A DNA stretch of 64,000 bases from Dryococelus australis. Lineage: Eukaryota; Arthropoda; Insecta; Phasmatodea; Phasmatidae. Shown one piece after another: positions 3,456 to 34,525 of the stretch (positions within the stretch are counted from its first letter, which is position 1; every line of letters starts with the position of its first letter). The translations under genes were made by a program, and so were the position numbers. The DNA is taken from positions 110,162,123-110,226,122 of the forward strand of contig CM056993.1 of assembly GCA_029891345.1 (NCBI GenBank). Direction: 5' to 3'. The notes beneath the pieces are model-generated. The model saw nothing but the letters and a program-made list of their open reading frames with translations, was not told where the DNA came from and made no database searches.

Positions 3456-3506
3456 TTTAAAAGGGTGCCCAATATTACACAGAAGCTAGCAGCAGAGAGG
3501 GCTCAC

Positions 3507-3738
3507 CTCGAACTTGCTCCATTTGTAGCTGGAGCACTTCCTTGTGCCCGGAGAGCTCTGTATAAGGTTCAGTATTGTGGGGTGGGAGAAACCAAAGAAC
3601 TCCGGGCCTTTGCCAAGGGCATTCACCACCTCCACACCTACCGCCATGTTTATGTGGTGCAGCAGCAAGGAATGGCAGTCACTGGCCGAGCTGCCCCCCA
3701 GTGGCACGTCCAGGTCACTGTCTGCCACTATTTCAAAC
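3507..3738 (-). CDS. TBRG1: TBRG1-like exon 6 (FYRC domain)
   Basis: Exon of 232 nt; acceptor cgtgccagcag, donor TTCGAG|gtgagc. It encodes an FYRC domain: an N-terminal strand '[15 protein letters not shown]', the helix region '[16 protein letters not shown]', and the signature '[20 protein letters not shown]' followed by '[10 protein letters not shown]'. It is 13 kb from exon 5, with Gypsy element 1, Tc1 and satellite DNA in between. It ends in phase 0. The next, probably last, coding exon should lie below 3507 or outside the window; none was recognised. Confidence 0.9.
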
Positions 3739-6700
3739 CTGCTGGCACGTACAGTGAAACCCCTTCTTTTATACTTTTGAAATGTTCAAAAAAAATTTCA
3801 AAATGAAGGAAAGTGCAAAAAGAGTAAAATTTATACTATAAAACAGTAAATGGGGCTGAAAAAGAATTGTAAAATACAGGAAAATGTACTGTAGTTACTT
3901 TCAGCAGTACACTATCACCACAACCTCACAACTGAAGACATAAGCACCTCTGAAGCATCTACTATTATGTACATTAGGAATGTGCAGATTCACTTTTAAA
4001 AAATCCAATTATGAACTGTTGACTCTGAGATTTGCCAGTTCCAGTTCAATTTCATACTCTCATGTAAAACCAACACGATTTTTGAATGAAATATGATTTA
4101 ATAGGCAGACATCTTCCAATTACAAACTGAAAATAAACCTATGTAAAAATTGAAATACATTGGAACCTGTATGGATAAACTAATGCATATTGATAAAATA
4201 TTATTTGCAGATTTGATCTCCATCCAACATTAACATCTGGTTTGCTGAAATGGGTGGATGCAATGTGTCAGAGAATAACAGTATATTCTGTAGCTGATAA
4301 ACTTAAAAGTAGTCAACCCTGTTTAAAAAATAGAAGCAAAACCAAAAGAATTTTTTTGAGAGAAAATTTGCATTTTCTTCTTACCCACTCCCTGCTCCCT
4401 TTTCTCTCAAAAATTCTTTGAAATACATTTTGGTAAAGGCATCTTACCTCCCCCCTTAGGACTCGCAACTCCAAATTCGTAGGTCACAACCCTCCTAAAT
4501 GTCAAGCTGGTAGATTGTTATCTTACAGCAGAATGGCATCCCCATTTCACTGCGTGGGACAAAAACTAGAAACTTTCTTTGAAATGACAGTGGAAATTGA
4601 GACTTTTTTACTGATGCTATCATTTCCATTTCAACACTCACAAAGGTTTTCTTATCTGCTAAATTAACACATTACCAGAACTAATTTCGTCGTAGCTGGA
4701 ACTTCACAGTAAACAAAAATTCACTGAAGAAAGGTTCGTTATAAACAAGTTATACTGTATTATCAATCCCTTCAAAACACAGATACTTACCAAATAAAAC
4801 ACCCAATGCTATCGTGCCAATGTACGTGTAAACATCTGGCTTAAAGATAAGTTTTGGCTGTATAGCATCTTTTGTGATACTGGACACAATCAGCGCAACC
4901 TCATTTCCTCCCCTTACATGGCTGGCAATGAGGGGGATGGATGTGGTTGCCTAACAGTCAGTGTGGCAACATCTGCCATCCAACTCGAGAAACCAACCGG
5001 GGGGAAGGGGAGTATATAGCCATCTGAGTGGGGAGAGGTGGTTGCTATGTTTACCCATGAGCACCGATACAAGGCCTTACAACCTCTATTTGATGTCACT
5101 GGCAGTGGGCAATACAATAACTACACAACATTGTTTTGGAATATCTAACAACACAATAAAATAAAATGGGCAACAATAAATAATACAAAATTTTCGCTCC
5201 ATTCAATCTGTTGCCATTTGTAAGAAAGTTAAGAACGATGAACGATAGTACTTGATACATTCTTTAAATATATAAACAAGCTGTAAACCATTTCTTAATT
5301 TTTGTCTTATTTACTCTGTTGCTATTTGTAAGCAAGAAGAAAAATTAGGGATGGGCTGATACAGATACATTGGCCAATAAACCCAAAATCAGATTCTGTT
5401 ATAATCTGTCATGATCCAACCAAATTGTTTCATCAACCCTAATGATATAATTATGATATTTTTGAACATGTGAACTGAATATGACCAAATTCTATATACA
5501 TATATTGCTAAGTAAGGACACTTGACTTTTATAGTTTTCTACCATGTCAGACATTTACTTTCAAAATGGTGGCCATTTTTTAATGGACAGTGATACGTCG
5601 TATCTAGGAAAACATTAAAACCCATTTAAACCAATTTTGTATGCTGACAACGCAAAGTGTAAGCATTGAATTCAGTGACGAATATTGTTGTAGATCCACC
5701 ATTTGGAAAATAGCACCACATGAAAAAATTAATCTTTTATATTATATCTTGAAAACTACTCAACCAATTTTCGCCAAATCTGGCACGTAAGTAGTACTAT
5801 AATAGGCCAGGTAATGTAAGTAACTCAACTTTATTACACACTTATTTTCAAAATGGTGGCCATATAAATATGTTTGGGTTTATTTGGTATAACTACCACA
5901 CCATTTGACCATTTTCAACCAAATTTTGTATACTGATATTATCTATTACAAGCAATATATAAGCCAAAAAAATACTTGTGTATGCCATTTTGTAAGATAG
6001 TGCTACATGAATTAATAAAGTTTTTGTGTAATATCTAGGGGAAACAATTGAGCGATTCCTACCAAATAAGCAAACAAGTAGTACTGTGGCAGTTTATACG
6101 TACAAATATGTTTTAAGTATGTAAGGCACTTATTTTGAAAATGTTGGCCATCGAGCTATTTTAGCATAGTATGCTATATCTTCGAAACCATTTAATCAAT
6201 TCCAACTTAACTTTGTATAATGGCAGTATATACACTATCGACGAAAAAGTAACTGGGCACCTGTCCACAATGCTCGGTGTGTCACCCCGTTACAATCTCG
6301 GAAAGCCACCTCTTGTGGCTACAACAGCAGCCACCCTGTCTGAAATGCTCTCTACAAGTGTTTGCAGGACATACATGGGGATTCGTCACCATTCCTCTTG
6401 CAACCATTCCATGAGTTGAGCAATGGATTTTGGCCGCACCTGACAAACCCTCACCCAGCGATCCAATTTGTCCCAAAATGTTCTACAGGGTTGAGGTCGG
6501 GGCTCTGGGCGGGCCAGTCCAATCTGCGAACATTGTTGTCAGTGTACCATTGCATAGTAGCCCTTGAAACATGGCACGTTGGATTGTCATCCTGGAAGTA
6601 ACACAGGTCCATTCCATAAAAACACACACAATGTTGGGAGCATTTCATTATCCAGAATGTTACAATAGGCCTCTGTGTTCATGCTACCATGGAAAAACAC

Positions 6701-9041: not shown

Positions 9042-9088
<47 letters not shown>

Positions 9089-12000
9089 TTCAACAAAATT
9101 CAACCACATTTCGTACACAACAGAATTAATTAGAAGCATTATTTATGCATACAGAGATCCTCTTTTGCAGGAGTTTTTGCAAAATAGGGTCAGGTGAGTA
9201 AATTAAACATTTTGCCATATTTCTGGGATAAGTCAACTAATTTCCACTAAATTGTGAACATCTACAGAAGGCCATGTAAAGTTACATAATTTAAATGGGC
9301 TCAAACTGATTTTCAAAATGGAGGCCATATAAAAAATTTGATATGTTTGGCATATCTATTTAACAATTTCAATCAAACTTTTTATGCTGATAGCATATAT
9401 TAGAAACATCATATACAGAGTCTCTTTTTAAGTTTTTTATGCCATATTTCAGAGACCAAGCAACCCATTTCCACCAAATTTTTCACACAAGTAGCGTTAT
9501 CATAGGCCATGTACACTGATGTGTATTTAGTGGCTTAGACACTTATTTTCAAAATGATGGCAGTGTAAATACATATTTCAGGTTAGTATTCAAAACATTC
9601 GACTGATTACATCTGAAGTTGATACTCCGAATCCAACATCCGTGATGCAGTTGATTGCAAGCTACCTTAATTTTACGAATTTTCTGAATTTGAATTTGCA
9701 GTACGTCACTTGTGTATTTTAATTATCTTAGTACTGTTTCACATTTTTCTGGATTTCTCTCTAATGCTATTGTTGCCAATTAGTTGTTAACACCTACATA
9801 ACATCTAAACTTTTAAGAACTTCACTAAAATATATTTGCACTCATGTAGAGGCAAGAAGGCTTATTAGTTAACAATAACATCTTGCTATTTTTGCAACTG
9901 AAAAATCAGTTTCTGATTTTATTTATATCTTTTAGTAACACGTGATTTGAAATTACTTAATGGGTACAGATATGGCTGGCCTTGGTGCTGCTACATATTG
10001 TTACGTGCTGCTGGCCGGCACTGTGGCAGTGGACCCACCTCACCTCTCCCCTCCCCCGGGAAGGCCTCCTGACCCCCCTTTCTAGGAAACCTGTGAATAA
10101 TGGACAGTGACCACCGGGCTGTCGCACTGCTCGGCGCCTTGCATGTGTCACAGCCCCTCTCCCCTGCTGGAGGTTTTGACGGGTCTGGTGACGACGCAAG
10201 AATGTTCTGGTGGGACTGGCTGGTGCCTTGGCCCTCCGCGGCGCATCACGGGTGTTGGGGAAGATTCTAGGTGGCGGCCTACGACGCTCTATATACTGCC
10301 GCAACCCAATGGCCGGCAGTCTTTGACGGAGGCCGCCTGGCCTAGTGTGTACGAGTGAAGTGAGATGTGGACGACGACAGCAGATTGAGGAACGATGGTG
10401 GGCAAAGTGTTCGTGGCGTGAATAGACGAGAGGGTTTTAAACCGACTAGTGAAGCCTACTATGCGTGAGGGCACTTGGAGGACTCTAGAACATTTCGACT
10501 GACGGGACATGAACTGAACTGAGATGGGACTGAATGGACGTGTAATACAGATTTTATTGTAAATACAGTATTCGAACTGTCAATTTGGACACATATTTTA
10601 TAGAATATTTGAATAGCTTGATACACTGTCTATTGGGACTGATCTTTAATTATTTAAATAAATTGATTTCTTTGTGGTAATTATAAATTGTATGAAATTG
10701 GAGTAATTAGTTGTGAACAGTATGAGGTGTCAATTTATTGTGAGATTTTGAGTTCAGAGAATTTTGCTGTAGATATTGTAAATAAAATAAGGAAATTATA
10801 ATTAATTCTTTTATTTAATTAAGACCTCCATCCTTTAACGAACTTGGTATATTCCACTTGAATTCTAGAGAGAGAAATTGTAACACTGGTGTCAGAAGTG
10901 GAATAGAGGCATTTTATAAAAATAAAATAATTTTAATTTGTATTTGTAAATTTCACAATATTTGAGCAATAGGCCGAGGAATCATTTTGAAATTTTTGAA
11001 TGCTTACTAGGGAAATGTCGGTAGACATGGAAGCACTCCGCTCTTTATTCAAAAGTTTAAATGGCCAGATAAATTGCAAAATATATCCTGTAAATAATCA
11101 GATTAGTAGCATAAATGAAAATGTAAATAGTAAAATAGAGTGTTAGTACATCTGTAAATAGCAAAATTATTAGTGTTAGTGAACTTGTAGATAAGAAAAT
11201 AGACAATGTTAGCGAAGTAGTAATCACGAAAATTGATAGTGTAAACGAAAATGTAGATAGAAAAATAGAGAGTGTGAATGAGAATGTGGACAGAAAGATA
11301 GAAGATGTAAGCGAGTTGATGAATAATAAAATAGACTGTGTGGACAAGAAGATTGACAGTGTGAACAAAAGGATGGACAGTGTTGAGCAAGATATGAAAC
11401 AGGAAGAGAGCACCCTCTAGCAGGAGTTCTTGCAGCAGCAGGGGAGACAACATGCAGTGGTGGAAGAGGAGCCGAGTTTGGCCACCTCCGAGACGACAAA
11501 TACAGGGAGCAAGAAGAAGGTAGAGGTCCCCATCAGTGCAGCAGTCGCAGGGGAGGCGCAGCAGTTCTGCAGTGTAGGTACGCTCCAGCCAGGGGTGGGT
11601 AAAGACGTCACAATTAAACCAGCCCCCTACGATGGATAGACCTTGGCTAGAGTACCAGCACCAGTTTGAGATTGTTGTCACCCTGAATGGCTGTACTGAA
11701 GAGCAGTGGGCGTACTACTTGGCAGCTGTACTGAGGGATTCAGCGTTGAGCATACTGCAGTCGCTGCCGGAACGACATCGTCTAGAACACTCCACTCTGG
11801 TATCGGCTTTGGAGCTTCGATTCGGCGAATGGTACCTGCAGCACGCCCACCATGCCCAACTGCGAAGCCGCATCCAGCAGCCTGGCGAACCACTGCAAAA
11901 GCTGTGGCAGGACATTGTGAGGCTGTCACACCTGTCTCTGGAGGGATGCTCGGAAAAGGCACGAGATGTCATCGCAGTCTGCTTCTTCGTTGACGCTATC

Positions 12001-15000: not shown

Positions 15001-18000
15001 GTTTTATGTGAATGTCAAACACATATATGTTTTTCATTGTGGACCTAATATTACCAGTGAATGGTCATCAAAGCAGCCAAGCTCACGTCGTACAAAATAC
15101 ATGCTCACAATTGAAGCCACAGTACCATGTTGATCACATTGGGACCCTAAAATTCCATAGTTTTCTACACTGAACTCGCAGTGAAACCTCACCTGTCACT
15201 ACTACCCCACAAGTCTAACTTACAAACTGTACTTTCCACCCACCGCCTTAAAAAACCGGGCAGGAATATCGGAGTGTGTGAACTTGTGGAACATAAAGTG
15301 CACAGCACTACACGGCAGAGGAGCGTGACACACCAGCTATTTATTACCAGCATTTTAATGCCATACAACCACAAAGATGGTATTAAATACAGATGTAAAA
15401 TCATGTGCAAAACTTGATAAATGAAATTTTAGACTTAGTTGAGAAACAAGTAGACACCCTGTCTTATTCGAACCACCCAACCAGACATCTAGTAAACCTC
15501 ACCTACACTGGTTAATTACACAGTACCAAGATTCCTTATTAGGATACAATCCAATTCTCGCCGCATATCCTCCCCACCTCATATCATCCTTTAGCTTGGA
15601 CTATTACCTGGGCCTGACTTCGCCGTAGCAAGCAACGGCTGCAGTTCAACCACCACCACCTACAAGTCACCGGTCTCAACCAGCTAGAGCTCTTCACTCA
15701 GGAATATCCAAGGTAAGGCATCGCCCTAGTATAGTTTTATTCACACCTGACTTTGCCCTCATACGAGAACCTACACGTCCATATACATACATACACAGGG
15801 AAAGAAAATCAGCATGACACTCCCCTGTAATCAGTTTGACATTACCTGAATGTCTTTCATGATGCTGACATCACAATGATTGATGTACACTTCTTCCTTG
15901 GCCAAACAAACCACTCGCAGATCTACCATAAGTTAACAACTAGCGTTAGAATCAGGGGTTCAACTCCACAAGCCAACAGAAACAAGCCTTCTCTACCGCA
16001 GCCCCAACGTGATCGACACCACGCCCAGCTGGCACTTTAACCTACACATCTTGTGAATAATGGGCTCATGACACAGCTCCGACATTATCTAGCGTTTATG
16101 TTAACATGTGCAGAATTTATGTGTAGTGCTATTTTGCTATAATTTCTCATAATAGGCAGTGTACACACAACACTATGTTTAGCATTACAGTACAATGGCA
16201 AGTGGAGTACCTGACAGCGTGTTGATAAAATATACAGCCTCCACGTGACACACCAGCTGATTTGCGAAAGGATAAATAAACAAAAAGTAAACATTTGGTA
16301 CTTCTTTCGTTGAAATGTCAAGATTTTGCCAAGTTACATGAGACAGAGAATTAGTAGTGTTCCACCACATTATGCTATCATACAATGCTATTCCTCTCAC
16401 ACTTGCTTTTTGTAACCCACCTCCCCCTTCCTTTTTCCCTTTAAGTAACTGTTCAAAACTACATGGCTGTAAAAGAACTGTAGCAAATTTTGTACCAGAA
16501 ATAAGAGTTGATCATATATGATAACATAAAGTACAGATACTATTAACACTGAGAGTCCTATCAGTAATGATATGATCATTCACTGGTGAGCTAATTAGTC
16601 AGGAACTAGCAATCTGAAGGAGCACAGGTAGTTCAAAAAACAGTTCAGTAAACCATTAATGCAGTCTATGAAAACTTAACTATGTACTTGCCAACTGACT
16701 GCACCAGTCGAGCCATAAATATTTCCAAGTCCACATGCAAGATATCTAGCACTAAGGTCTTGCAGAATTCCCATACACTCCTATAAAGTACAAACATATA
16801 TCTTTTAAATTATATCGTACTAACATAGTTTGAATAATGGAGGTTGGTAAGAGCATAATTCACAAATTAGCACAAATGCCAGGTTTTCCATTTTTCAATT
16901 TGCTAGACATTCTGCGTGCAGAGAAATTCAAGTGATGTGCAACTGTGTACAAACCTTGGAGCTGGACCACCATCCATCACCTTGCATGTGTACACACTCT
17001 TTCTCTCAGGGTCCTTCAAACTTCCATATACTCTTGTTGAACAGAATCCCACAGGGAAAATGAACTCCTCTGTATGGTAGTCTGGTCGGTCAGAAACCAC
17101 CTGTCAAAATAATTACTGCTGCATTAGTTTTTTACCAAGCCAACTCTATATATGTGTGTTCAGTTGTATAACTTAACTACATTATCTACAGGTTGTTGCA
17201 AAACTGCATGTCAATAATTCGGGGAAACATTCCTCATATCTGAAGGATGAAAAAATGTTATGTGAACACAGGTCCGCAAACGCTTTGTTTCTTTACTACA
17301 GCCCGTAATACATAATGTACAGTGTATGGCCTGCGGGCTGGATGTACAGTGTATGGCCCGCGGGCTGGATCATATGTTACTGTGGAATGCTGTAACATAC
17401 CAACCCCCGAAGAGTCCTGATTTGAATCCACCAGGCTTTTATTTGTGGAGACATTTAAAGGCATTGTGTATGCAACCCCAGTGGACGATGTGGTCACCCT
17501 CCATAACCACAGCTATGGTGGGTTGCAAAATATTCAGGAATTTTCCAGGGATTCATCAACACATCCTGGTGTCCATGCAACGGCGGGTTGATGCATGTGT
17601 TTGTGCAGATGGAGGGCATTTTGAACATTTCCTTTTGTGCTGATAAGCTTCCACACTTGTGTAACTAATTTCTGTGCAGTTCCTACTGTTCTAGGTGCAG
17701 TGTCATAGTGTGAGGTGTCATGTATCATGCAAACGAGCACTGCAATGGCACTCCACAGTACCATGATCCAGCCCGTGGGCCATACACTGTATGTTACATA
17801 TTAAGGGCTGTAGTAAAAAAAAACGAAGCGTTTATGGACCTATGTTCATATAACATTTTTTCATCCTCCAGATGTGAGAAATGTTTCCCCGAAGTATTGA
17901 CATGCCATTTTGCAACATCCCTTGCAAAAATGTTCTTAACTTCATAAATAAATTCACAGAAACTGTGTATATATTTGTTTTCACTGCATATCTGTGCTTT

Positions 18001-21000: not shown

Positions 21001-24000
21001 GGATGGAAAGAGCCTTCTTCGGGCTTGGCAAGATTGGCCTTGTTCACACCTAGGAGAGCCCCCAAACTCTTCGGTCGGTGGGCCTGCAAACTCTGGCAAG
21101 AAAGTTTTTGGCTGTCCTTATATACTCAAAATCACAGCTTCATGGCTTTCACAGGGGTACGGGGGTTGGTAGCCTTCCATCGCAGAGGTAGATTATTTCA
21201 GGGTATCTGACGGCACCACTCATTTCTTATCGCCCTGGATGGAAGCTGACAACATATTTACTGCCTCCTCTCGAGGCTTGACGGCTATGTCGTCACTGGT
21301 CGCAGGGGTGCTGCCATCCTGCGGTGTCGCTGTTAACTTCTTTCTCTGCTCTGGTGTGTCTGCGACTTGGTGGGTAACACAATCTTCGTTTGTAGGGTTA
21401 GCGGCCGCATGCTAATTTCTGAGCGGGCAGTACAATTTATTATTAATACGTTAATTATTTTTGTCTCTGTAGTTGTCCAATGCGTAGTCAACCCCGTAGC
21501 CACTGAAATAATTGACTGCTGCTTTAGACTTGCCCGAAATGCTCTCAGTGCTTACTGATGGGGTGAGGGTGAAATCGTCAAGTAGAGTACGTAGGCACGC
21601 TGTGCAGTAGTGTGACATGCATCAATGTATAAAAAAATAATTAATACAACATGCTTAAAACCATTTAAATATTTTTAATTATTTTCAGTGCTAACTAATA
21701 GCTCTGCAAATGATGTGATTATACATAAATTTGCACCCATGATTCCTGGAGTACAAGCAAAGAAAGCATGGAACTATGCACCCATTTACTCACTCACATA
21801 ACATAGACCCAAGAATACACACACACAAAAGAAAGCACCTAACTGGGACCTATAAATTGCTGGCAAGTAAAAGGCAGCTTCTTGTTTTGAATGGCACAAG
21901 ACATATATCGGAGGATGGAAGTGAGAAAGGATGAGAAGGCAAGGGTGACGAGACAATGAATGCTCAATGCTCCTACCATGTCCTGTTTTACATTTACTGA
22001 TGTACCATGTTGATGTACACCGTCCACAATAACAAACACGGAAGCTGCTAATGTAATGGCATGCTGAGAAATGCACACATACACACCATGTAAAAGTGAA
22101 TTTTTACAAAATAAACTGTGTATGAGACAATTTATCAGAGAAGTTGAGGAAATGGTCTACAAAAGAAAATTAATGGATAGTTGAAACTATGGTTTGAGAA
22201 GCTGCAGTTGACTGAAGGTTACTGTGTTGCAAATTACACTTATACAGTAAAAAAATGCCTACCTCCCCAAGGCTGTGAATAGTAAGTCCTCCCAGTATTA
22301 TCGGGAATACAGGCCGGCCCGTCACGTCCAGAGGAATAGGCTGGACTATCTTCTTCGCCTTGGGGGTATTCAGTTTTTTGGGTTTCGAATGAGTTTTCCC
22401 CGAGTCTTCAGAAACACAAAATCAGAAAACCTACACAATTAGGCAGCTCACAAATCAATAATCCAACACTAAATTTCATTCAGCATTCTATCAAGCAGTA
22501 AAAAGGTACTCCTGCTTACTGTAGACTTTTCAGCCCGATACACAGGTTCTCTAAATTAATTACTTGGACATAAATTAGCATTATAGACCCTACCGATAAC
22601 ATTCCAAGTAGAAATCATTCACCAAAAAATTAATTATGTCTATTTAATGCAGTAAACCATTACCAAAACAGACACACTATAAAACAGAAAGCTGTACAAA
22701 TATTAAAAAATATTATGGCCCCGGCCCCATTGCATTTACTGTGTATAACAGCCTGTATAAAATGAAAACCTTCACAATGTGGAAATTAAAGGTTTTTAAT
22801 GGAATGTACCATAATTTAAATGCATCCCAGTTGCATTAAAACTTGGTCAGAGGAAGCATATTTTAACATTTGAAATTACATATTTAAGTAAGTATGTAGA
22901 GAAAGCTCTAATCTTAGTCAAAGATAGAGTGTTTTTACAGTTCTCTAGGCAAAAAAGCATTATAATGTCGCGACATAGACACTAGTTATTGTGCAGCTAA
23001 CATGCGCACTCCACGGTTTGTGGAATATATTGGTTTGATGCAAGGTTGCGACTGTTCAGTAGTGTAAAAGTGGTGTTACAGAATCCCAATTCTGTCATGT
23101 GTGAAATGCCAAAGCTTAACTCTTTAATTTAGTGAAAGGTGAAAGTGACTGAAGATCACGAAAAAGAAAAAGTGCCTTCAAAACAATTATTGGAACAGTT
23201 TAGGCTTACGTGCAGGAAACCACACATAGTAAGGAGGAAATGAAAAGAAATTTCTTAAGGAATGGTTTATGGATACTGTGCAGAACAAATTAAACTATTG
23301 AATTTAAAATAAAATGTTTATGTTATAATGCAGAATCTTTTTCTTTCAAATTTAACTTTTGTGTTGTTTGACTGCCTCTTCACATGCCTGAAATGGAAAC
23401 CTGCTGAAACTGAAAATATTTCAGGGTCCCACAGAGTTTCACTTTAGACAGATTTTACTGTAGTATAGAAATCACATTTCATAAAAATTCTTTCTCTATT
23501 ATTTTTCTGTGATACTGTGACACATCTGTCATTTCTGCCACTTTTATGGCATGCAATCACAATGGTATATCATACTTCCAAGTATGATGAGTGGAGTGTA
23601 AAAACATAGATTTAGTTAAATATATGGTAGTAATAGGCAGCTAGGATACTAACTACATTATTAGAAAGAGATAGAAAACTTACATACTCACAGGGCAGAA
23701 GTCACAGACACACACACACATATACAAAGTCCGGCAAACACATTTTCCATGCAGATGCGCTGTCGCCACATTCTGCTGGCTGGACCAGCTTCTCTATTGT
23801 CTGAAGAATGTGACCCAACCAACAACATATAGTAACCAATGTTGTAACCGTGAAAAATGTATTCCATCCAACTTTGTGTACATGTCTGTCTGCAAGTACC
23901 ATCCTGTGAGCACTCGTGTTTTTTATCTCCTTTGTCATAATGTAATTAATTAAATATAAGTTTGTTGAATTATGTACCTTAGGTTCACAGTGTCAAGCAC

Positions 24001-27000
24001 ATAAAATGAAGCAAGTGACAAATAAATACAATTTACCATGCTAAATCAGTTAATTCTGAAACACTAGCCATTAAAAGTAATTAAAACTAATCCCCACCAC
24101 TAGTATCCAAAAATTTTTTCTTGGAGTGCTTCTTGGTAGAAGTGACACCTTCAAGAGCCCCTTGAGGAGGGCTGAGTCCAGAAGAATATTTGCCGCCATG
24201 AGATGGTAACTGAACATCTGACTCTGAAACACAACAGGCCACTTAAGCCACACCACCATCATATTGAAACCATGTTATGTCGCATATCTGCAAAATGTTG
24301 AGAGTTACTATAAATCCTAGTACAAACCATACCACATCATTTAACCTAGCTCCAACTACAATAGTGTTTGTAGGCAACATAAAATTCATTCAGCAATGTG
24401 TTTCTTAATTAATTTAGTTATTATATAAGATCCATCCTACCTAAATAAACAAAAATGGAGGAAGGGGACAAGGGGAGAACATCATTTTGAAGCTCTAAAT
24501 ATATCAAATGTTTTATGAGCACTTGATCCATCCCAAATCGCTTGGAGCCTAGTGTATATAAGGGATTGCTACGTCATTTTTTGGCCCTGATCACAACAGG
24601 ATGCAAAATAAATCTGTACATGATCTGATTTTTACTGTTCAATGGTCATCACTTAAAATTTAAAATAAACATGTTACAGGTACAAACATATACCAAGAGA
24701 AGAATAATAGCAGATTATTTTAATAAAATATTATGGCAACAATTTGATAATGCCCAAATGTTTCAAAACACAACTTACTGAACTCAATTTATTGTCATAC
24801 ACTGCTATGATATCCATGCTGCTGTAGAAAATTTCCATTATCTTTTCAGTCTTAATTCACTACTACAATTTCCTTACTCATTCCTAAGTTTTGAATAATC
24901 GTGATGTGTATGGGTTGCCTGGCTCCAACTGTGATCTAATGCACTAGGCAATCACACTGCACCCAAGATAGCCACCACTGCTGGCATGCAAAACAAAACC
25001 AAACCAAACACAGTACCTTATTTGTTGTGTTATCATAACGCAAACCCAGCATGACCCATAATGTTTCAAATATATACATTCTCCTTTCATATACAGCAAA
25101 AATCACACTTTTCTGACAACTTTCACGGCATCTGTACTACTTTTTTTTATGAGTTCTTCACATCGTACACTCAGATGCAGTGCTCAATTGGCAGTTGCTT
25201 TACTTCTACCTTAATACTGCCCTGTAAGTCAGCTGGGTTACTGGCAAAGTGCTGGAGTCTGACACTCAATGTCTGTGGTTGTTTCGATAGCGGCTCCAGT
25301 AAAGAAATTAAATGTGTGTGTGCCTGGTATTATACACAATTGTGACTGTACAGAAAGTTTGCCAGAAATATATTGGTGAACTCAGTGTGGACAATTGCCA
25401 CTGCCATCGACTTGGCAACGGGAAAATACATGGAGAACTTTGGCAGGGTTGCTATTATCGCATTAAGAACAAGTGGCTTGCCAACTGCGCAGATGTAACA
25501 CAACAGTGGCAGGAGACAAGTCGGTGGAGCTGTCAAATTGGAATCAGTGCCCGGGCTTCATGTCAACACATTCAGATACTACTATGTCCAGCAAACTTGC
25601 AGGTACTGTTTCTACACCTATCCACTTACGCCTGCCACTTTCAAGTGTGTGTTCATAGATGGCGTGGGTGCAGTAAAACTGATTTTGAGATACTGCCAAA
25701 GTGTTCATGTTAGCTTTCACGAGTAAAAACGACGTTACAGTAAATAAATGTCATAATTGCAGCATTGTCTGGCTACTACCTTTTGGTTGTTCATAATCAA
25801 TGGATAAGATAATTAATGTATGAAACTGTTACTGTGGTTCGCAAACTCTTGTATAAAGGTTACATCAAGTAAATGCAACATCAGTTTTCCTCCTTTGTTA
25901 TTTGGTTAAGGAACAACTTCCAAACGTTTCAGCACAACTCAACTTTCTTAATCAGAGACAGATTCAAATATGTTGGAAGGGGGACATAGTGAGTGTAATT
26001 TTGTGCTGAAAGGGGCGAGGCACATTTGACTTTCCCAGCACCCAGATTGGCTGTATCAGTGGCTTATCTAACAGCTCAGATGGTATGGTGCATTATTCAT
26101 AACTAAAAAAGATTTTTCTAGCAAGTTCAGAAGCATTATTTCAGTCGCCCCTTACCAGCTTTTCAAAGTTTACATGGTTCATCTGACCATCGTAATCACT
26201 GCAACAGACAGATGCAGCAGTATGCACGAGTATTTAGTAGGCTTCAGCTAAGCCAGCAGACTGGTACAAGGCAGCATGCAGACAAAAAAAATGGCCAATC
26301 AGATAAGGGAACACAGTTCCGCTAGTCTAGTATTCCACACAGCATCACTGTGTAGCACCCTCTAACCCACAGGCACATGTTTCATCTTTCCCAATGATGC
26401 CGCGACAAGCTTCGGAAAGCCTCACAGCCTCCCAGGTAGGTGCTCATTCAGATGTGGCAAAATTCTATGTAATGTTTCAATGTAGTTCAGTATTTTCTGT
26501 ACTCGATCAAAACTGAATACGATACTCTTTCCCATTAACATTTAAGACACCAAAGCCAATGGGTTGACGGTGCACTGGCTTGAGTATCCCTCTAGAAACC
26601 AATTCTCCTCAACACGGTCTTTAACCTATTGGCTGGACCATATATAGACCCTGGGAGCATCTGGCCCTAGCTTACCAGAGTGCATAGTTTGAGCACTGTG
26701 GATTTTATAAGCTTTTTTCTGGCCCACCCAGAGATGGGGAATTGGAATAATTGTGGGTACACAGCTGGGCATAGTTAGAGAAGTAACGTTACTTACGAGA
26801 TAAAAATAAGTAAAGAGTTAAGAATTACTACTTTAAAGTATGTAGTGGTGTCCGGCAGGCTCAGGCATGATCGTAGGTAAAAGTTCAGTAATGTAGCAGC
26901 ATGGGAAAGGACCTATTCTTTCTGGGGCCAGTGCCTTGGGTTAAACTCCAGTCGGAGTTCTATCAAATGATTGGTGTCTCTAGTGACATTATCAGCTGGG

Positions 27001-30000
27001 AGATACACCTCACCATAGACAGTGCTCGGGCCTATAACGGCTTGTGGAGAGGGTTCCTTGATCCTTCTTGGGAAGAGTTGAGCGAGCTTCTTTACCAACT
27101 TCCCCTCGGTTTTACAGTGGTTCTCTATAAGGGGCTCAACCAGCATGTAATCAGAGTTATGGTGACCCTGTATGTTTGTTCTCCTAAGTTTCAGGAGCTT
27201 CAGAGAAAGGTTCTCTTCCCTCTTGCCAAAGCGATGCTAGCGAGTGATGTTACCAACCAGCACTAGACACCAATCATCAACAAGAGGCGAAAGCGCCCTT
27301 CAGTGGGGATGTGATTCAATTCACTAATGTGATGGCCATGCATGCATCTGGAAGTACTCAGGTGGACAATTACACAGAGTGAAGTGGGTAGGGAAGATTT
27401 GAAATGAAAGAGTGAGTATGTGAGTGAAAAGATTTGAGCGACTCTTAATATTGAAGTCTTGATAGCAGATGAGGGTGAAAAGAGGTAAGAATGGAACAGC
27501 GCCAGAATGCAAGGGCAGGGAAACGGGATATCCCAGAGAAACCCTACTGATCAGTTGCATCGTTCATCCGAATTCCCACATGCGAAAATAGGGTGTGTGT
27601 ACCCGAAGCGCAATAGCGGACTGGCACACACACCATGTTGTGATTCAAAAATAGTGAAGTTACATGAAGTTAGGTTAGGATTTCCTGTATTTAGCGCAGC
27701 CAACCAAATTTGTTTACGTAAATTACACACCATTTTTGTGTGTTATATCCCACAATTTCCCTGATCTTCATGGCCTTTACCAGTAATAGATTTGGTAGTA
27801 TGTACTGTGAGTATTGTGATGTACCTAGTAAATTCATGTTCTGTGTGATCAGTAGTGTCGAGTGATACCATTATCCAAGAAATTGTCTCTTTTTTCTTTT
27901 CAGAAAAGCTGTGATTCTTAATAATTACTGTATATAGAAAACATTTTAAAAATGACATGGAACATAACAGTGGGTGGGCAGAACTGACCAACCACACACA
28001 TTAATATGGGGTGTTGTACGGCATAAACACATGAATGGCACACAAAAAACCAACACACAAATGTTTATAAAATTATGAAAATTAAACCTTTGCTAACTTT
28101 AATCAACTCTTTGCATTATAGCTGATGACGATCATTGGTAAATTCCAACCCTACCAACAATCAGTTTTACGCACCCGTAGACAGCTTGTACTGGTAGAGT
28201 TTTCTCAGCAAGAACCGTCTCTCCTGGGTAGCCACAAAAACCATTTCTTGCAACTGAGCCACATAATCACACAAAGAGGCATTCACCTACAAAGAAAAAA
28301 TTTTTTCTGAGACACTGCATCAGGTTATTAAGTACTTAAAAAAATATGTGAAACTTAACAACAGTCATATGAAGACATGTTTCCATTCAAACTATAATCT
28401 TAGGTCTTATTATTATGATCTCAATAAATCGCCTTATGCCTGCCTCTTACATACTGTGGAGTTCCTGAAATAAAATGTACATAACATATAGAAGAAAACT
28501 ATATACAACATTTACATAATCCACGTGTCTGGAGACGATCTATAGTTTTAGTATGGCGGCAGTTAGATGTCAGGTTGTGTGTGGATGCTGTGAAAAGAAG
28601 CTCACTACGAGTAATGGATGCATACAGTATGATGGTAAGTGCAAAAAATGGTTCAGAAGGACATGTGCTAAGTTAACAAAAAGAGAATTTCAAAGAAGAC
28701 ATGAAAATAAGGCTAGGTACCGTGGGCAATACGATGATGATGATGTTATGTCTAACACTTCGAACGTGGATGCAAACACAACATCGGAAGGAAATGAGTT
28801 GAAACTTATGCTGCAAAAGCTGAATAAACTGGATATTCTTACTGCTGAGCAGGGTAAACTAAGAATATTGTGCTAAAAATTTTGATGACATGAACTTAAT
28901 GAGGTTAGACAAAAACTTGATCAAGTGATAGCCGAAAACAAAATAATGAGGGAGAAGTTGGATACATTGCATGAAGAGAGTACAGTGCAAAAAGCTGAAA
29001 TAGCTGATCTAAAAAGGGAAAATGAACACCTGAAGCAGCATCTATGGCGCAACAATTTAGAACTTCATGACATTCCAGTGAAAGAAAATGAAAATACTGT
29101 CGATCTGGTGATACAAGCATCATCAGCTCTTGAGGTAAAACTGATCAAAGAGGACATTGATGCCTGTCATCCTCTTACCCAAAGAAAACCAGAACTACCA
29201 CCTCCAATTATTGTGAAGTTCACCAGTCGACTAAAAAAGGAAGAAGTCATGAAGGCAAAGAAAAGTTTCCCACAATTAACGACTGTCAGCCTCAATCTGA
29301 ACAAAACAAATGGACCAAGCATACCTGTCTACATTAATGAAAATCTCACACAGCATCAAAAAACACTGCACAAAAAACTGAGAGATTTGCAAAGACATGG
29401 GGTGAAATTTATGTGGGTAAACAATGGTAACATATTTGCCAAGATCAATGAAACTTCCAAGGTCACTTAAGATTAAAGAAGAGGATGACATCAACCAGCT
29501 AAAAGGAATGCTGTTTATGAACAGTAATAACACCAACTCCACTCCAAGTAAATGCTAAAAAAAATCTGCAACTGAAGACTGTGATGTACCATGTGTTGAA
29601 GAAAGAAGCTTTTCAAATTTTCTGGAATATTAAACTTTTGCAAAATTCTTCAGCATGTGATGACTCTGAGTTAAAAATAATGTATTTAAATGCCAGAAGC
29701 TTAAGAAATAAAATGGACGAGATAGAAACATTAATTAACACAGTAGGGAATGTTGACATTGTAACAATAATTGAAAGTTGGATTAACAGTAATGAAACAA
29801 AATATTAGAATATAGAGGTTTATGACAGCTTTTTTGCCTGCAGAGATATAAAGATTGGAGGAGGTACTTGTATATGTGTTAAACGAGCTACAAGAACAGG
29901 TGTACTTAAGGACCTGATAGAAGAGGAACACAGCTTATTTCATGTACAATTAGACAGTAGAGTGGTTACAAACTGTAGAATACACATTTTAATCTGCTAT

Positions 30001-33000
30001 AACTCCAGCAAAGGCAACTATCCAGTGTTCCTCCAAAAATTTGAAAATTCTCCTAAGTAACGTTCAAAGCAGATACACTATTGTAATAGGTGATTTTAAC
30101 ATTGATTCTCTAAGTAATTCAAAAGAAATGCAAGACTATAGTGTATGGCATCTACCAGGTTAATTCAATTGTCCCCACCAGATGCTCTAAAACTACAAAT
30201 AGATCATATTCTAGTTAATAAAACTGAGTATGCGTTTAGAATATGTAATATAGGGTCCATAGATAGTTGTGTAAGTGATCACAATGTTATTGTATAGGAA
30301 GTTACCACTGGAATAAATAAAAAGCTACAACCTAGAGGTCAGAAAAATGAGAGTAAAACTGATCACAGAATAAAAATTAATTACTCTAATCTTAATATTT
30401 ATCTAGAAGGGAAACTATGCTCTGACACTCTTGGAAATGAGGAGGATAGTGACAGAATGTACAATGAATTAACACGACAAATTAAGGCAGGGACTGCAGC
30501 CAATATAACTGATTGTAACACTAAAAAGAGGAAAGGAGACAATATTAATCCTATTAGAGAAACATGGGTTAGTAAGGAATTAATACAAATAATTCACAGC
30601 CGAGACACACTTCACTCAAAAGTGAAGGCCAACCCACACAATGAACAATTGAAAACAGAATACAAATTGTATCGCAACAAAATAACATTGCTAAAGCTTC
30701 TATGCAAAGAAATTTGAAAGCTGTAATAACAATGTCAAAAATACTTCAAATGTCATTAGGGAGATAATATATACTAAACGGGTAACCCAAAATATAAACA
30801 TAGACTCACTTATACTAAATAATGTGATAACTACAAATAAACAGGACATTTGCAACTCACTAAATACATACTTTATAGAAATTGGTAAAGAACTAGCATC
30901 CAAATTCACATTAAAAACATATAAACAAACATGTGATAATAGTACCCAAACAAATTAGTTGTTTCTGAAATGTACTGATGAACTTGAGGTAATGAGCATC
31001 ATTAAAACTATGAAAAATACAAGTGGTGTAGGTTATTATAACATTTCAAGCAGGACACTTAAGAAAATAGCACATTCTATGCCCCACACTTGTAGAAATT
31101 ATTAACCAATCCATAGCTTCTGGAAAGTGTCCAGCTAACCGCAAAATTGCTAAAGTCATACCAGTTTTTAAGCAAGGAGAACAGTGTAACCTAAGTAATT
31201 ACAGACCCATTTCATTATTACCAAGAATTTCTACAATATTTGGAAAAGTTCTTAAGCAAAGACTGATACAATAACTAGACAGCTTCAATTTCTTTTGCCA
31301 GTGGACAGTCTGAGTTTCTAGAAAACTCAAGTACACAAACAGCAATGCTAGACCTTGTAAATATGCTGCAAGAGAGTCTAGATAATAATAAAATTGCTGC
31401 AGGACTGTTCATTGACTTAAAAAAAGCTTTTGATACAGTGGACCATGAAATACTTTTACAGAAAATGTATCACTTAGGCCTAAGGGGAGAAGCATTTAAA
31501 CTGTTTGAAAACGATCTAAAGGATAGGCAGCAATATGTCACTTTGAATGGCTACACAAGTAATCTAGCAACAATAACACATGGTGTACCACAAGGCTCAG
31601 TACTGGGTCCTATATTATTTTTAATTTACATAAATTATATTGCAAACTGTAAACTCAAAGGACACATCACTCTATTTGCAGATGACACAAATATTTTCTA
31701 TACAGAAGATAAGGCTGAAGAACTTATTAATAACATGCAGGAAGACATAAACACACTGACAGAATGGATTGAACAAAACAAATTAAGCATAAATGAAGAA
31801 AAAACTAACTATATGTTTATAACCAAATCAAACCAAACCGTAAACTGTGAGACTACTTCAAATTAATAACAAAGTACTACATCGAATGGAGTATGCAAAA
31901 TTTTTAAGACTGCTAATGGATCAGAACCTTTCATGGAATATTGATACAAATTATGTTAAGAATAAACTTAAACCAGCCGCAGGGGTCCTGTGGAGAATAA
32001 AAGATTATAATACAGTACAGGCACTAAAGAATATCTACTATACCATTTTCCATTGTCATCTGCTATATATGTTATGTTTCTGGGAAGCATGTAGCATGTA
32101 ATAAACAGCTGTTTTATAGTATATAGGTAATTCAAAACAGAGTATCAGAAATGTTTCTGGTTACGATACTATAAAATGTGTGAAGGATATGTATGTCGAA
32201 CAAAGAATATTACCTCTAAAGATGATAGAAGAAGAACAAACTAAATTAGCCCACAAAATATTCAGAAATCTTACTAAAGTAGTTTGCAATACAAGTTTAA
32301 GAAAGATGTTCATTCCTATAACACAAGAATTCTTACTGCTTAGACATAGTAGAATTAACACTGCAAAATTTGGAACTAAAAGTATTAAATATAAATTGAC
32401 CAAATCATACAATAATTTAGGAACAGACAATATATAGAATGAAACAATATTTAAATTGCAAATTGAAAAAAGTTGTTTGGGAAAAATTCTGTGATAACAA
32501 TAGATGAACAATGCACATTTATATACTAGCTATATGTAATGTTAATATATGTGACATGACTACAGGTAATGGATATGTATTTATTTTTTCTTACAATTTT
32601 ATTATTAATTTGATTTTCTACTCATCCATACTACTTTAATCTCATGAAACATGTCATTCACAAGAAAATGTAGTTAATATAATAATGAGTTTGATGATAA
32701 TCTTGCTTGGTTAATGTGTAGTACATCTGTATTTTTATTTTATAGTGTGTAGGCTAAGCATAATTTGTTAAATGCTATCAACGTGTTTCCATGTGCATAG
32801 AAGACTGGGCAAATATTATATTATTTCAATTCTGTGTATTTTATCTCTAATAACTTTTCATATGATAGGAGATATAGGATCTGTTATTGTAAGTTGTGTT
32901 TATTTGTATCTGCCTTCCCAAAGTGTTTTCATTAAAATTGTACCTAGACTGCCTATAGCAATAGGCTTCCATGGACTTCATTTAATTATTGAAACAACTT

Positions 33001-33449
33001 TTAAGTGCATGAATGCTCTGATTATGAACCATCATGCAATATTTATAACATGAGACTACAATGACTTGAACTTCCATTGTTTTCTGTTTGATTTTTGTAC
33101 TGACTATTTGAGATGTCACCAATATGTTCTGTACTGTTCCCAAGAAGGAGTCATACAGAACTCATGATAACCTACAGTAAATAAATAAATAAAAAAATAA
33201 CAATTGGTGACGACTACCAATACGCTTGTAGGCCTACTTGTGTCATTCTACGACACTATACATTATTCCATATTCCCAAGAGACATCTCATTATGGGGTA
33301 CACGGTGAGCAAAGTAAATTAATTATAATAGTAATAATTATAATACTTACAAAAACCATTTCTTTCGCAAACCTCTTCAGTTTTGATAATTTTTTCTTGT
33401 ATGCATACAACTGACGTCTTATTTCTACAGAAGAATATCTATAATTCAT
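3507..33449 (-). CDS. TBRG1: TBRG1-like gene (FYRN/FYRC protein), six exons, 3' end incomplete
   Basis: Six minus-strand exons (33449-33351, 28286-28175, 24223-24098, 22405-22263, 17100-16955, 3738-3507) have GT-AG borders and matching phases. Together they give 858 nt, exactly 286 codons, with no stop. Domain order: short basic N-terminus with an ATG, a coiled-coil region containing '[15 protein letters not shown]', a Lys/Ser-rich linker, the segment '[20 protein letters not shown]', FYRN ('[16 protein letters not shown]'), then FYRC ('[17 protein letters not shown]'). This order and spacing is that of TBRG1, not of the much larger trithorax/MLL proteins that also carry FYRN and FYRC. In vertebrates TBRG1 (NIAM) is a nuclear growth regulator linked to p53/ARF; the same role here is inference. 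Vertebrate TBRG1 has roughly 410 residues, so a C-terminal exon and perhaps N-terminal sequence are missing. Introns hold a LINE, Gypsy, Tc1 and satellite DNA. Confidence 0.88.
3739..4790. other. Intronic AT-rich sequence without recognisable genes
   Basis: Lies in TBRG1 intron 5. No domain, RNA gene or paired repeat recognised. Confidence 0.4.
4791..4912 (-). CDS. Possible unassigned exon (hydrophobic peptide)
   Basis: A 122-nt minus-strand stretch with a strong donor (TTATTTG|gtaagt) and a plausible acceptor (catgtaag). The only sensible frame reads '[20 protein letters not shown]' and then '[18 protein letters not shown]', which looks like part of a membrane protein. It lies inside TBRG1 intron 5, but its phases (enters with one base, leaves with one) would break the TBRG1 frame. 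It cannot be a simple cassette exon of that gene. It could be a nested gene, a pseudogene fragment or chance. No family recognised. Confidence 0.3.
6233..6261. repeat. Tc1 left terminal inverted repeat
   Basis: CACTATCGACGAAAAAGTAA followed by CTGGGCACC. It pairs with 7406-7434 except at two positions. The TA at 6231-6232 is the target duplication. Confidence 0.9.
6451..7372 (-). pseudogene. Tc1 transposase remnant (DD34E)
   Basis: The minus strand carries the N-terminal helix-turn-helix region ('[19 protein letters not shown]'), then the catalytic domain: first Asp in '[10 protein letters not shown]', second in 'QDDNPTCHV', and Glu in '[11 protein letters not shown]'. There are 34 residues between the second Asp and the Glu, the Tc1 DD34E signature. 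'[12 protein letters not shown]' is also typical. Internal stops (for example after the segment near 7140 and before 6587) and at least one frame change mean no full protein can be made. The catalytic residues themselves are intact. Confidence 0.92.
7406..7434. repeat. Tc1 right terminal inverted repeat
   Basis: Reverse complement begins CACTATCGACCAAAAAGTAA then TTGGGCACC, matching the left end. Followed by TA at 7435-7436. Confidence 0.9.
8255..8425. repeat. Small ~39-bp minisatellite between 22-bp direct repeats
   Basis: The phrase ATTAACTCAACATTGAAGCG occurs at about 8259 and 8400. Between the copies are three imperfect ~38-39-bp units that start TGCGGTCCCA or similar and end CTATCCACTGAGCC(A/G)C. 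This block interrupts the 285-bp satellite. Confidence 0.75.
9047..9081. repeat. (TA)n microsatellite
   Basis: About 17 TA dinucleotides in a row, inside the satellite array. Confidence 0.95.
9999..10885 (+). repeat. 5' LTR of Gypsy element 1
   Basis: About 887 bp, beginning TGTTACGTGC and ending AATTGTAACA, the usual TG...CA ends. The end is confirmed by the matching stub at 14491-14597 and by the primer-binding site that follows. Confidence 0.85.
10887..10901 (+). promoter_or_regulatory. Primer-binding site of Gypsy element 1
   Basis: TGGTGTCAGAAGTGG lies one base after the LTR end, the form common in insect Gypsy elements for priming minus-strand DNA synthesis from a tRNA 3' end. Confidence 0.85.
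11000..12480 (+). pseudogene. gag: gag of Gypsy element 1 (coiled coil, capsid, CCHC knuckle)
   Basis: Starts with ATG at 11000. Residues after about 35 form a repeat of 11 residues ('[11 protein letters not shown]' and variants; 33-bp DNA repeats at about 11130-11370), a right-handed-type coiled coil. Next come a capsid-like region around 11640-12000 ('[12 protein letters not shown]') and a zinc knuckle [14 protein letters not shown] (12255-12296, spacing CX2CX4HX4C). A Gln-rich CAG/CAA tract follows at 12301-12360. Frame breaks near 11130 and 11630 and a TAG after 'KPAPYDG' destroy the ORF. The knuckle itself is intact. Confidence 0.85.
12417..14480 (+). pseudogene. pol: pol of Gypsy element 1: protease, reverse transcriptase, RNase H
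   Basis: Protease: the motif reads VNTGAT at 12501-12518, with Asn in place of the catalytic Asp. RT: '[20 protein letters not shown]' and '[12 protein letters not shown]', then the active-site box reads YLNNIG (13764-13781) where the family has YLDD, so both metal-binding Asp are lost. RNase H: '[17 protein letters not shown]' and '[17 protein letters not shown]' near 14200-14330. Stops interrupt at 13424 (TAG after Ser-Pro), 13971 (TGA after Arg-Asp), 14388 and 14469, and there are frameshifts near 13640 and 13705. Several of these are positions where the family has Trp. No integrase is present. Confidence 0.9.
14491..14597 (+). repeat. 3' LTR stub of Gypsy element 1
   Basis: About 107 bases matching the end of the 5' LTR (from TGTAAATAAAATAAGGAAAT to TTGTAACA), with few differences. 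The rest of the LTR and the pol 3' end are missing, so a deletion joined pol directly to the LTR tail. Confidence 0.9.
14598..16954. other. Intronic sequence without recognised features
   Basis: AT-rich to 15180, then a slightly GC-richer stretch at 15470-16080 that looks repeat-derived but matches no family I know. Short ORFs only. Confidence 0.4.
16955..17100 (-). CDS. TBRG1: TBRG1-like exon 5 (FYRN domain)
   Basis: Exon of 146 nt; acceptor ttttgacag, donor CCAAG|gtttgt. It encodes most of an FYRN domain: '[20 protein letters not shown]', then '[18 protein letters not shown]' and 'MDGGPAP'. FYRN and FYRC together form one folded module in TBRG1 and in trithorax-type methyltransferases. The exon leaves two bases (AG). 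With the first G of exon 6 these make Arg, giving '[13 protein letters not shown]' across the junction. That is the expected FYRN-FYRC link, so no further exon is needed between them. Confidence 0.9.
17190..17921. mobile_element. Internally deleted DNA transposon with ~180-bp inverted ends
   Basis: 17190-17375 and 17760-17921 are inverted copies. Shared blocks, read inward from either end, include TGCATGTCAATA, TTCGGGGAAACATT, GGATGAAAAAATGTTAT and CAGTGTATGGCC. The interior holds only the tail of a transposase. A 27-bp tandem duplication (TGTACAGTGTATGGCC...GCGGGCTGGA) sits at about 17317-17370. The element lies just upstream of TBRG1 exon 5, in intron 4. Confidence 0.85.
17392..17643 (+). 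pseudogene. C-terminal transposase fragment (mariner-like DDE)
   Basis: Encodes '[19 protein letters not shown]' followed by '[20 protein letters not shown]' and 'GGHFEHFL'. This is the usual end of a mariner-like DDE transposase found in many insects: a SPDLNP box, Trp-x-His-Leu-Lys, then a Arg-Arg-Val-Asp-Ala-Cys tail. The N-terminal DNA-binding region and the first catalytic Asp are absent, so it cannot be active. Confidence 0.75.
17922..22262. other. TBRG1 intron 4: repeat-like sequence, no clear gene
   Basis: 18010 begins CAGTAGAATCTTATTAACTC, similar to the ends of pogo-type transposons, but no partner end was found. 19260-21580 is GC-richer and has short ORFs (e.g. 19424-19672) that I do not recognise. 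It is probably an old transposon. Confidence 0.35.
22263..22405 (-). CDS. TBRG1: TBRG1-like exon 4 (linker to FYRN)
   Basis: Exon of 143 nt; acceptor ttctgaag after a pyrimidine-rich stretch, donor GGGGAG|gtaggc. It starts with a Lys-rich stretch ('[12 protein letters not shown]') and then encodes '[20 protein letters not shown]', the conserved block just before FYRN in TBRG1 proteins. It ends in phase 0 with Ser-Leu-Gly-Glu, and exon 5 continues Val-Val-Ser-Asp-Arg-Pro. The GC content is clearly above that of the flanking introns. An in-frame TGA sits just upstream of the acceptor, supporting the border. Confidence 0.88.
22406..24097. other. TBRG1 intron 3, AT-rich, nothing recognised
   Basis: No ORF with a known domain. 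A short (CA)n run at about 23708-23722. Confidence 0.4.
24098..24223 (-). CDS. TBRG1: TBRG1-like exon 3 (Ser/Lys-rich linker)
   Basis: Exon of 126 nt with acceptor tgtttcag and donor G|gtgggg. It encodes a low-complexity linker ending in '[14 protein letters not shown]', probably part of a nuclear localisation region. It is supported mainly by phase: it enters with two bases and leaves with one, matching exons 2 and 4. Reading through the donor meets a TAG three codons later, so an intron is needed here. The linker is poorly conserved in the family, so this exon is less certain than those carrying domains. Confidence 0.7.
24224..28174. other. TBRG1 intron 2, includes decayed coding-like patches
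   Basis: The minus strand at 25720-25130 shows stretches that read like protein in changing frames ('[19 protein letters not shown]', '[18 protein letters not shown]', '[19 protein letters not shown]'), interrupted by stops. This fits an old pseudogene or transposon, family unknown. A 121-codon plus-strand ORF at 26901-27266 also has no recognised domain. Confidence 0.35.
28175..28286 (-). CDS. TBRG1: TBRG1-like exon 2 (coiled-coil segment)
   Basis: The acceptor follows a T-rich tract ending ttgtag. The reading frame contains '[20 protein letters not shown]' followed by '[12 protein letters not shown]', very like the TBRG1 segment with the pattern ALCDEV...EERRFLL. Two donors are possible: G|gtgcgt, and gtaaaa 4 nt further on. 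The gtgcgt choice leaves one base over and makes the codon GAG with the first two bases of exon 3, so the frame continues. The gtaaaa choice would break it. Just upstream, in intron 1, lies a 4.6-kb LINE in the opposite orientation. Confidence 0.85.
28553..29470 (+). pseudogene. LINE ORF1 (zinc-finger and coiled-coil RNA-binding protein)
   Basis: Begins with ATG at 28553. The N-terminus has a PHD-like Cys pattern ('[20 protein letters not shown]', then CKKWFRRTC). After stops near 28876-28890 the frame continues with a long coiled coil ('[20 protein letters not shown]') and a nucleic-acid-binding C-terminal domain ('[20 protein letters not shown]', '[20 protein letters not shown]'). This layout is known for ORF1 of some CR1/Jockey-type LINEs, where it binds element RNA. 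Only the linker stops break it. Confidence 0.82.
29581..32437 (+). pseudogene. LINE ORF2 (endonuclease and reverse transcriptase)
   Basis: Endonuclease: '[20 protein letters not shown]' (29680-29740), '[11 protein letters not shown]', GDFNID near 30100, and '[10 protein letters not shown]...SDHNVIV' near 30195-30295. [12 protein letters not shown] (31193-31222), '[20 protein letters not shown]' (from about 31402), '[19 protein letters not shown]', and an intact FADDT box near 31675. The order and motifs are those of a non-LTR element with an APE endonuclease. Stops at 29806, about 30057, 30297 and 31274 and several frame changes prevent expression, although the catalytic residues I can see are unchanged. 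Confidence 0.9.
33351..33449 (-). CDS. TBRG1: TBRG1-like exon 1 (start codon, basic helix)
   Basis: This first coding exon has 33 codons and is too short to stand out as an ORF. The ATG is at 33449-33447. Reading back in frame, two consecutive TAG codons lie about 20 bases upstream, so this is the natural start unless an upstream exon exists. The peptide is rich in Lys, Arg and Tyr ('[20 protein letters not shown]'), fitting the start of the TBRG1 coiled-coil region. It ends in phase 0 at a strong donor (TTT then gtaagt). The next exon opens with '[14 protein letters not shown]', which continues the helix. Confidence 0.75.
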
Positions 33450-34054
33450 TGCACTAATATGTAAAGTAAACTACTACATGCGAAAATGATTTAATAATTA
33501 CATCACTGTACAGTTTTAAGGGGGGGGAAAAAAAGCAATTCGTTTTATTGCTCATCTTCGTCTGCTCTGCATTGTTTATGATTTGTTTTTGTGTACTTGT
33601 TGCGGCGAAAAAACTCCTGGCCTGAATAACTTCGCCTGCACAGCCAGTAAATACCACAATATTCTTATATATTCTAACAATCATGGCGTATTCCAAAGGA
33701 CTGATTTGGGTGCGCGCTGAAAATTGAAATAGTGCATTAGACACGTGATTGCTACAAACGATCGCATATAATTTATGCACTGACAACTTGAACACGTCAC
33801 AAAAACAGTGCAAAACATTTGCGACAACATATCATAATTTGGAGAAAATGCTTGAAATACCATGTTTATAAAGGGATTCAAATTTAAATTTATGATATTC
33901 CGTAAAGATAATTTTCTCAAATATCTCTTTTTTAACTCTTCGGCAAATTAATGCACCATATGCACGAGTCATTGAGTGAAATTAACTTCATCGCCGAAGT
34001 AATTACGAACAACTTCGTCAATATGACAAGAACAAATATGTACCATATTAACTG

Positions 34055-34525
34055 TCATGTATTATTTAGCTGCCTAAATGTTAGATATTGAAGAATATCC
34101 AACATTGAAATAATATTCGCATTGTTTTCATAAACACAGGTTGCCACCATATTGTTCTGAAAAGCAGAACTGACTCCAGACTCGGTACGGGTAAGAATTC
34201 TCTCGGTGCCCACTCGTTCAGTGCAAATAGCAATTGGAATACAAAAAATCGACTGCTCTGAGAGCGAGTTCCGGTATTTGCAACACGTGGCACTCGGCCA
34301 GTCCACACCGAGTTGACGGTTGTCAGGTGTCTGAAAAAGGGTTGGTTGAGGTAATATGGGCGGTGAACTTTCAGGTGAGGCAAGGTTATGAAAAAATTCC
34401 CTGTAGGTATCAGATGTCGCCTTGGCGGCGTCAATGTTGCAGTTGCGGTATAGCTGATGACACTTGATATTCTCGAGGTGCTGCAGGCCGATCACCCGTA
34501 CCAACATTCCCTCGATGCTCTGCAA
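34055..34525 (-). CDS. Hypothetical ORF upstream of TBRG1 exon 1
   Basis: 156 codons on the minus strand, 0.6-1.1 kb upstream of the TBRG1 start codon. Composition is protein-like ('LVRVIGLQHLENIKCHQLYR', then a Pro/Ser-rich part) and GC is higher than nearby. The frame stays open upstream of the ATG as far as a TAA. No domain recognised. It could be a fragment of a retroelement gag, an upstream exon, or an open stretch in a GC-rich promoter region. The rest of 33450-34746 holds the presumed TBRG1 promoter, but no specific site can be named. Confidence 0.3.
   Translation of the reverse strand: MQSIEGMLVRVIGLQHLENIKCHQLYRNCNIDAAKATSDTYREFFHNLASPESSPPILPQPTLFQTPDNRQLGVDWPSATCCKYRNSLSEQSIFCIPIAICTERVGTERILTRTESGVSSAFQNNMVATCVYENNANIISMLDILQYLTFRQLNNT

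Follow-up and report, generated by a model that had tools for sequence, protein, structure and literature searches.

A probable TBRG1 orthologue in short exons of the stick insect Dryococelus australis, with an N-terminal helix that weakly resembles INO80E

The closest described systems are mammalian TBRG1 (also called NIAM), the KMT2C/D methyltransferases, and the INO80 subunits INO80E and INO80F (TFPT). The FYRN–FYRC module of human TBRG1 (structure 2wzo) presumably forms one composite fold; the linker of the human protein is lysine-rich, and its chain continues beyond FYRC. We know of no FYR module in INO80E or in INO80F/TFPT. In one study, mammalian TBRG1 co-purifies with INO80B-V5 at a sub-stoichiometric level and follows INO80 nucleosome binding (PMC10954555). 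Another reports that Niam immunoprecipitates contain all reported INO80 subunits, cites a yeast two-hybrid contact between INO80E and NIAM, and assigns most known activities to NIAM residues 1–164 (PMC5557939). The partners of Niam given in the same paper further include Myst2/JADE, B-WICH, ribosomal and other proteins; ARF, MDM2, Tip60 and Myst2 bind to its N-terminal part as well, and no mapping of the INO80 contact to a region of Niam was found in the accessible part of the text (PMC5557939). A sequence likeness between TBRG1 and INO80E was not stated in the partly accessible literature on TBRG1/NIAM and INO80/INO80E, which included few subscription papers, and nothing on conservation was found in the accessible part of the paper on NIAM-deficient mice (PMC4231569).

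We analyzed a 64,000-nucleotide stretch of the D. australis genome (the window), in which FYR blocks were located by pattern, N-terminal exons were added, and the exons were then joined. The resulting gene lies on the minus strand, an orientation that the first-pass annotation had not stated, with its exons running from 33449 to 3507, so that short exons are spread through transposon-rich introns over at least 30 kb. Exon 1 (33351..33449, 99 nt) starts with the first ATG in frame downstream of a stop codon; it encodes the first half of an INO80E-like helix, the second half of which is encoded by exon 2 (28175..28286, 112 nt), placed by tblastn and by its phases. The doubtful exon 3 (24098..24223, 126 nt) would supply a lysine-rich linker and is in frame. 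Exon 4 (22263..22405, 143 nt) contains a basic linker, the DVTGRPVFP block and the start of FYRN, and exon 5 (16955..17100, 146 nt) the remainder of FYRN, both with tblastn and Pfam support, while exon 6 (3507..3738, 232 nt) encodes FYRC, again from Pfam and tblastn, and ends without a stop at a phase-0 GT donor. Joined, the six exons give 858 nt, or 286 codons with no internal stop. The acceptors of the five internal junctions read AG, the six donors read GT, and the junction phases run 0/0, 0/1, 1/1, 1/0, 0/2 and 2/0. The earlier model of six GT–AG exons of 99–232 nt with compatible phases was thus recovered exactly, and its domain order (N-terminal helix, DVTGRPVFP block, FYRN, FYRC) is confirmed in the joined peptide. 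Its figure of exactly 286 codons holds for the length and the open frame but not for a complete protein, since exon 6 carries no stop. Its remark that most of the exons are too short to appear as ORFs holds good, although the FYRC exon sits in a 99-codon open stretch (3489–3785).

Splice sites were ranked with a simple score, whose weights were generic rather than trained on these data, as percentiles of every AG or GT on the strand. On this scale the five acceptors lie at 0.83–0.94 and the six donors at 0.92–0.998. An alternative exon 2 donor, GTAAAA (exon end 28171), was rejected at percentile 0.42, compared with 0.99 for the donor chosen.

The joined peptide matches FYRN (5.2e-25, residues 146–204) and FYRC (4.3e-15, residues 208–281), both above the Pfam cut-offs as the first-pass annotation had anticipated, and the exon 6 residues alone match FYRC at 2.4e-15. 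A search of all PDB sequences identified human TBRG1 2wzo as the best solved relative (1.2e-51, 179 bits, residues 142–286, no gaps); 80 of 145 residues (55%) of the FYR block are identical between the two in an ungapped alignment. We also searched the window by tblastn using a human TBRG1 sequence that is exact for the FYR block (2wzo) and approximate elsewhere. Exons 2, 4, 5 and 6 were matched on the correct strand and in order with E values of 1.6e-6, 1.9e-10, 1.9e-15 and 1.9e-19. The window gave E = 2.4 for its next match, and the reversed window gave nothing better than 1.7. The value for exon 2 is approximate because its match extends 20 residues into the upstream intron, over two stops. 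Exons 1 and 3 were not matched by this query anywhere in the window. Over the N-terminal helix, identity to the approximate human TBRG1 sequence is 38%. Beyond the block, helix and domain order that it shares with TBRG1/NIAM, the window gene has a different, still provisional linker, and the part after FYRC was not found in the window.

The FYRN–FYRC pair is common to KMT2C/D as well, and a rival reading is a trithorax-related/MLL-type methyltransferase gene with its FYR part inside the window. The only other distinct PDB sequences matched at E 0.01, two in number, are in fact from KMT2D, at 7.4e-11 and 45 bits; among solved structures, the only ones compared here, this is 134 bits behind TBRG1. 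A TBRG1-type helix moreover lies in frame upstream of the FYR block. The window contains 140 stop-to-stop ORFs of at least 85 amino acids, of which 111 were scanned with Pfam and 29 were omitted by eye as repeat-derived or as overlapping frames. Neither a SET domain nor a PHD family was found in the 111 scanned ORFs, the window ending 3.5 kb past FYRC. We regard a methyltransferase gene as extremely improbable, in keeping with the first-pass expectation that TBRG1 rather than trithorax/MLL would be the best match (179 bits for 2wzo compared with 45 for KMT2D in the PDB). The TBRG1 family assignment made there is supported by FYRN and FYRC, by the match to 2wzo and by the N-terminal helix. The gene is an ordinary host gene and a new member of the TBRG1 family, and we are highly confident, from its sequence, that the window holds most of an intact-looking animal TBRG1/NIAM orthologue.

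The two exons without a tblastn match differ in standing. For exon 1, the 19 codons before each GT were scored against the 19 residues that precede the corresponding junction in the approximate human sequence. The exon 1 donor ranked first among 3976 GTs of the minus strand, with a score of 31 followed by 18 for the next; as controls, the best scores were 16 among 3703 GTs of the plus strand and 15 among 4968 of the reversed strand. Exon 3, by comparison, has no homology match, either in Pfam or by tblastn with the approximate human TBRG1 sequence. Dropping it keeps the frame (five exons, 732 nt, 244 codons). Exon 2 could then join exon 4 directly, with 244 codons as far as the donor after FYRC, or the linker could come from another exon. 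The intron between exons 2 and 4 holds 26 open, phase-matching candidates from 15 acceptors, including exon 3; a splice-score filter with a minimum length of 27 nt leaves five, two of which have higher summed splice scores than exon 3, and the exon 3 donor reads GTG|GTGGGG. Set against this, the exon 3 acceptor (percentile 0.91) and donor (0.97) are on par with those of the other exons, and its lysine-rich product is like the human linker. We give the six-exon model and a variant without exon 3 equal weight, as two forms of the TBRG1 reading.

The N-terminus had been annotated as a coiled coil. More specifically, this helix resembles INO80E: residues 17–63 match PF24237 (INO80 complex subunit E) at 5.5e-4 within the whole joined peptide, and the first 70 residues alone match at 3.2e-5 and 24.6 bits, below the gathering cut-off of 27.8, so that the protein is not filed as INO80E. 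PF24237 is also hit, at 9.7e-5, by the corresponding stretch of the approximate human TBRG1 sequence and, at 0.0021, by an approximate sequence of human TFPT (INO80F). None of seven shuffles of the 70 residues matched PF24237 at E 1, although coiled coils resemble one another beyond what shuffles capture. Exon 2 alone gave no PF24237 match, nor did any of the 111 scanned ORFs of the window at 1e-3, and two coiled-coil-like ORFs (28889–29467 and 46158–46502) remained unmatched even at 0.1. Aligning the TBRG1 pair with approximate INO80E and TFPT sequences by hhalign (two sequences per side) gave a probability of 96.6% over 53 columns. INO80E (PF24237) and INO80F/TFPT (PF24245) thus share with the window protein a helical block of about 47–53 residues with the same spacing, although PF24245 was absent among the families matched by the N-terminus at E 1. 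In the PDB, the N-terminal 70 residues had no match at E 10, and approximate INO80E and TFPT helices reached E 0.43 at best, always with chains whose names are unrelated, so no structural template was found for the helix. Judged by these sequence comparisons, the resemblance to INO80E is real as a weak family match.

The CpG profile of the window bears on where the gene begins. The CpG observed/expected ratio is 0.43 over 3507–33449 and 0.26 in intron 1, compared with 0.69 over 33450–64000, and it reaches 0.91 over 33450..34949, a likely promoter or 5′ region, to which no strand was assigned. A change-point search made without the gene model placed the strongest single change of the window at 33201, in intron 1 and 150 bases past exon 1, with ratios of 0.42 to the left and 0.68 to the right; none of 2000 permutations of 2-kb blocks gave a change as strong. 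The position stayed at 33201 when we masked the intron 1 non-LTR element, that element together with a tandem array, or all noted transposons (0 of 1000 permutations in each case), and with all noted transposons masked the strength was 28.7 versus a permuted maximum of 26.3. There are exceptions: single 1.5-kb bins inside the gene reach 0.66, and far from the gene 42001–43500 and 52501–54000 stand at 1.0–1.07. Since the boundary lies within 250 bases of the 5′ edge of exon 1, this exon is probably at or near the 5′ end of the gene; an acceptor-like AG four bases before the ATG makes an earlier, upstream exon possible. Low gene-body CpG is usually read as the mark of an expressed gene whose body is methylated in the germline and whose promoter is not. 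The low ratio from exon 1 onward suggests the same here, for a gene expressed in the germline, and the sharp boundary itself is suggestive of mosaic methylation of gene bodies in this animal.

The 3′ end behaves differently. Reading through the phase-0 GT donor of exon 6 adds six residues before a stop. With the approximate human query, the residues after FYRC had no tblastn match in bases 1–3506, and the best scores at acceptors in this stretch were 5, 7 and 2 over 14, 20 and 28 residues, compared with plus-strand values of 16, 13 and 10. The lack of a stop in exon 6, together with the lack of a continuation in 1–3506, indicates that the gene probably extends past the left end of the window, with its last exon or exons outside. 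The 3′ edge could not be placed from the CpG profile, which stands at 0.64 over 1–1500 and is low, at 0.35 and 0.21, over 1501–4500, a region that includes a CT-rich tandem array. This array (2575–3023) consists of units of about 21 nt, lies some 480 bases beyond the 3′ end of exon 6, and is crossed by long spurious ORFs. A 3′ end that is not seen within the window could also reflect a decaying TBRG1 duplicate, as could the retroelements that the introns carry. Such a pseudogene is hard to reconcile with retained introns and 286 open codons, with an FYR block that is still ungapped and 55% identical to the human one, and with a CpG pattern that is that of a gene body, and we consider it improbable; an intact-looking TBRG1 gene truncated by the window edge is the reading that we adopt.

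Scanned as a pool, the 111 ORFs match nine families. One is FYRC, presumably through the ORF at 3489–3785; the other eight belong to retroelements and comprise reverse transcriptase, integrase, two RNase H and two protease families, zinc knuckle, and an FP-like domain of non-LTR ORF1. With FYRC as the sole non-retroelement family, the scan is compatible with the description of this locus as the only clear host gene, although other genes of short exons would escape it. Scans of the window for tRNAs and for Rfam families (gathering cut-offs) gave no match. Searches with the FYRC pair touched 83 stretches in viral_contigs and 99 in genome_contigs, none of them confirmed; as these collections are viral or prokaryotic, they are uninformative on animal orthologues. 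A reverse-transcriptase piece had no match among plasmids. Intron 1 holds non-LTR pieces (28520–32434, plus strand; ORF1 with an FP-like C-terminal domain, and reverse transcriptase) that are antisense to the gene and very CpG-poor. Intron 4 holds a 730-bp element (17191–17920) with 104-nt inverted ends that are 88% identical, 90 bases upstream of exon 5, whose internal plus-strand ORF looks transposase-like by eye and has no Pfam match. In intron 5 lies a Gypsy-like element (10821–14597, plus strand) whose two ends carry a 65-nt repeat (94%); its ORF at 12006–12809 carries a zinc knuckle and an aspartyl protease just under the cut-off. Outside the gene, two direct repeats (34745–35234 and 37069–37577) lie about 2.3 kb from each other and match at 82–85% over three pieces; they may be the LTRs of an old element close upstream of the gene. 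ORF pieces at 54554–59142 (minus strand) and 46158–48601 (plus strand) resemble two further LTR-retroelements by eye.

A working model is proposed in which the gene starts near 33.45 kb on the minus strand, continues beyond the left end of the window, and is expressed, its product being a putative nuclear chromatin factor. The helix of exons 1 and 2 would pair with the similar helix found in INO80E or INO80F, thereby attaching TBRG1 to the INO80 remodeller, and the FYRN–FYRC module (exons 4–6) may make a further chromatin or protein contact. An INO80E-like front part fits the published binding of TBRG1 to INO80; docking through the N-terminal helix is a tentative proposal, which we hold at slightly less than even confidence. 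In its wider form, to which we are likewise a little disinclined to commit, TBRG1, INO80E and INO80F (TFPT) would share an ancestral helical module from this animal to human, and TBRG1, docked by pairing its helix with that of INO80E, would for that reason be an old, FYR-bearing accessory subunit of INO80.

For annotation, the locus is a useful example of how readily short exons can be overlooked when they are scattered over 30 kb of transposon-rich introns. Taken as a gene, it is conserved and ordinary; the lead to follow is the INO80E-like helix, which, if true, would provide a reason in sequence for the published TBRG1–INO80 and TBRG1–INO80E contacts.
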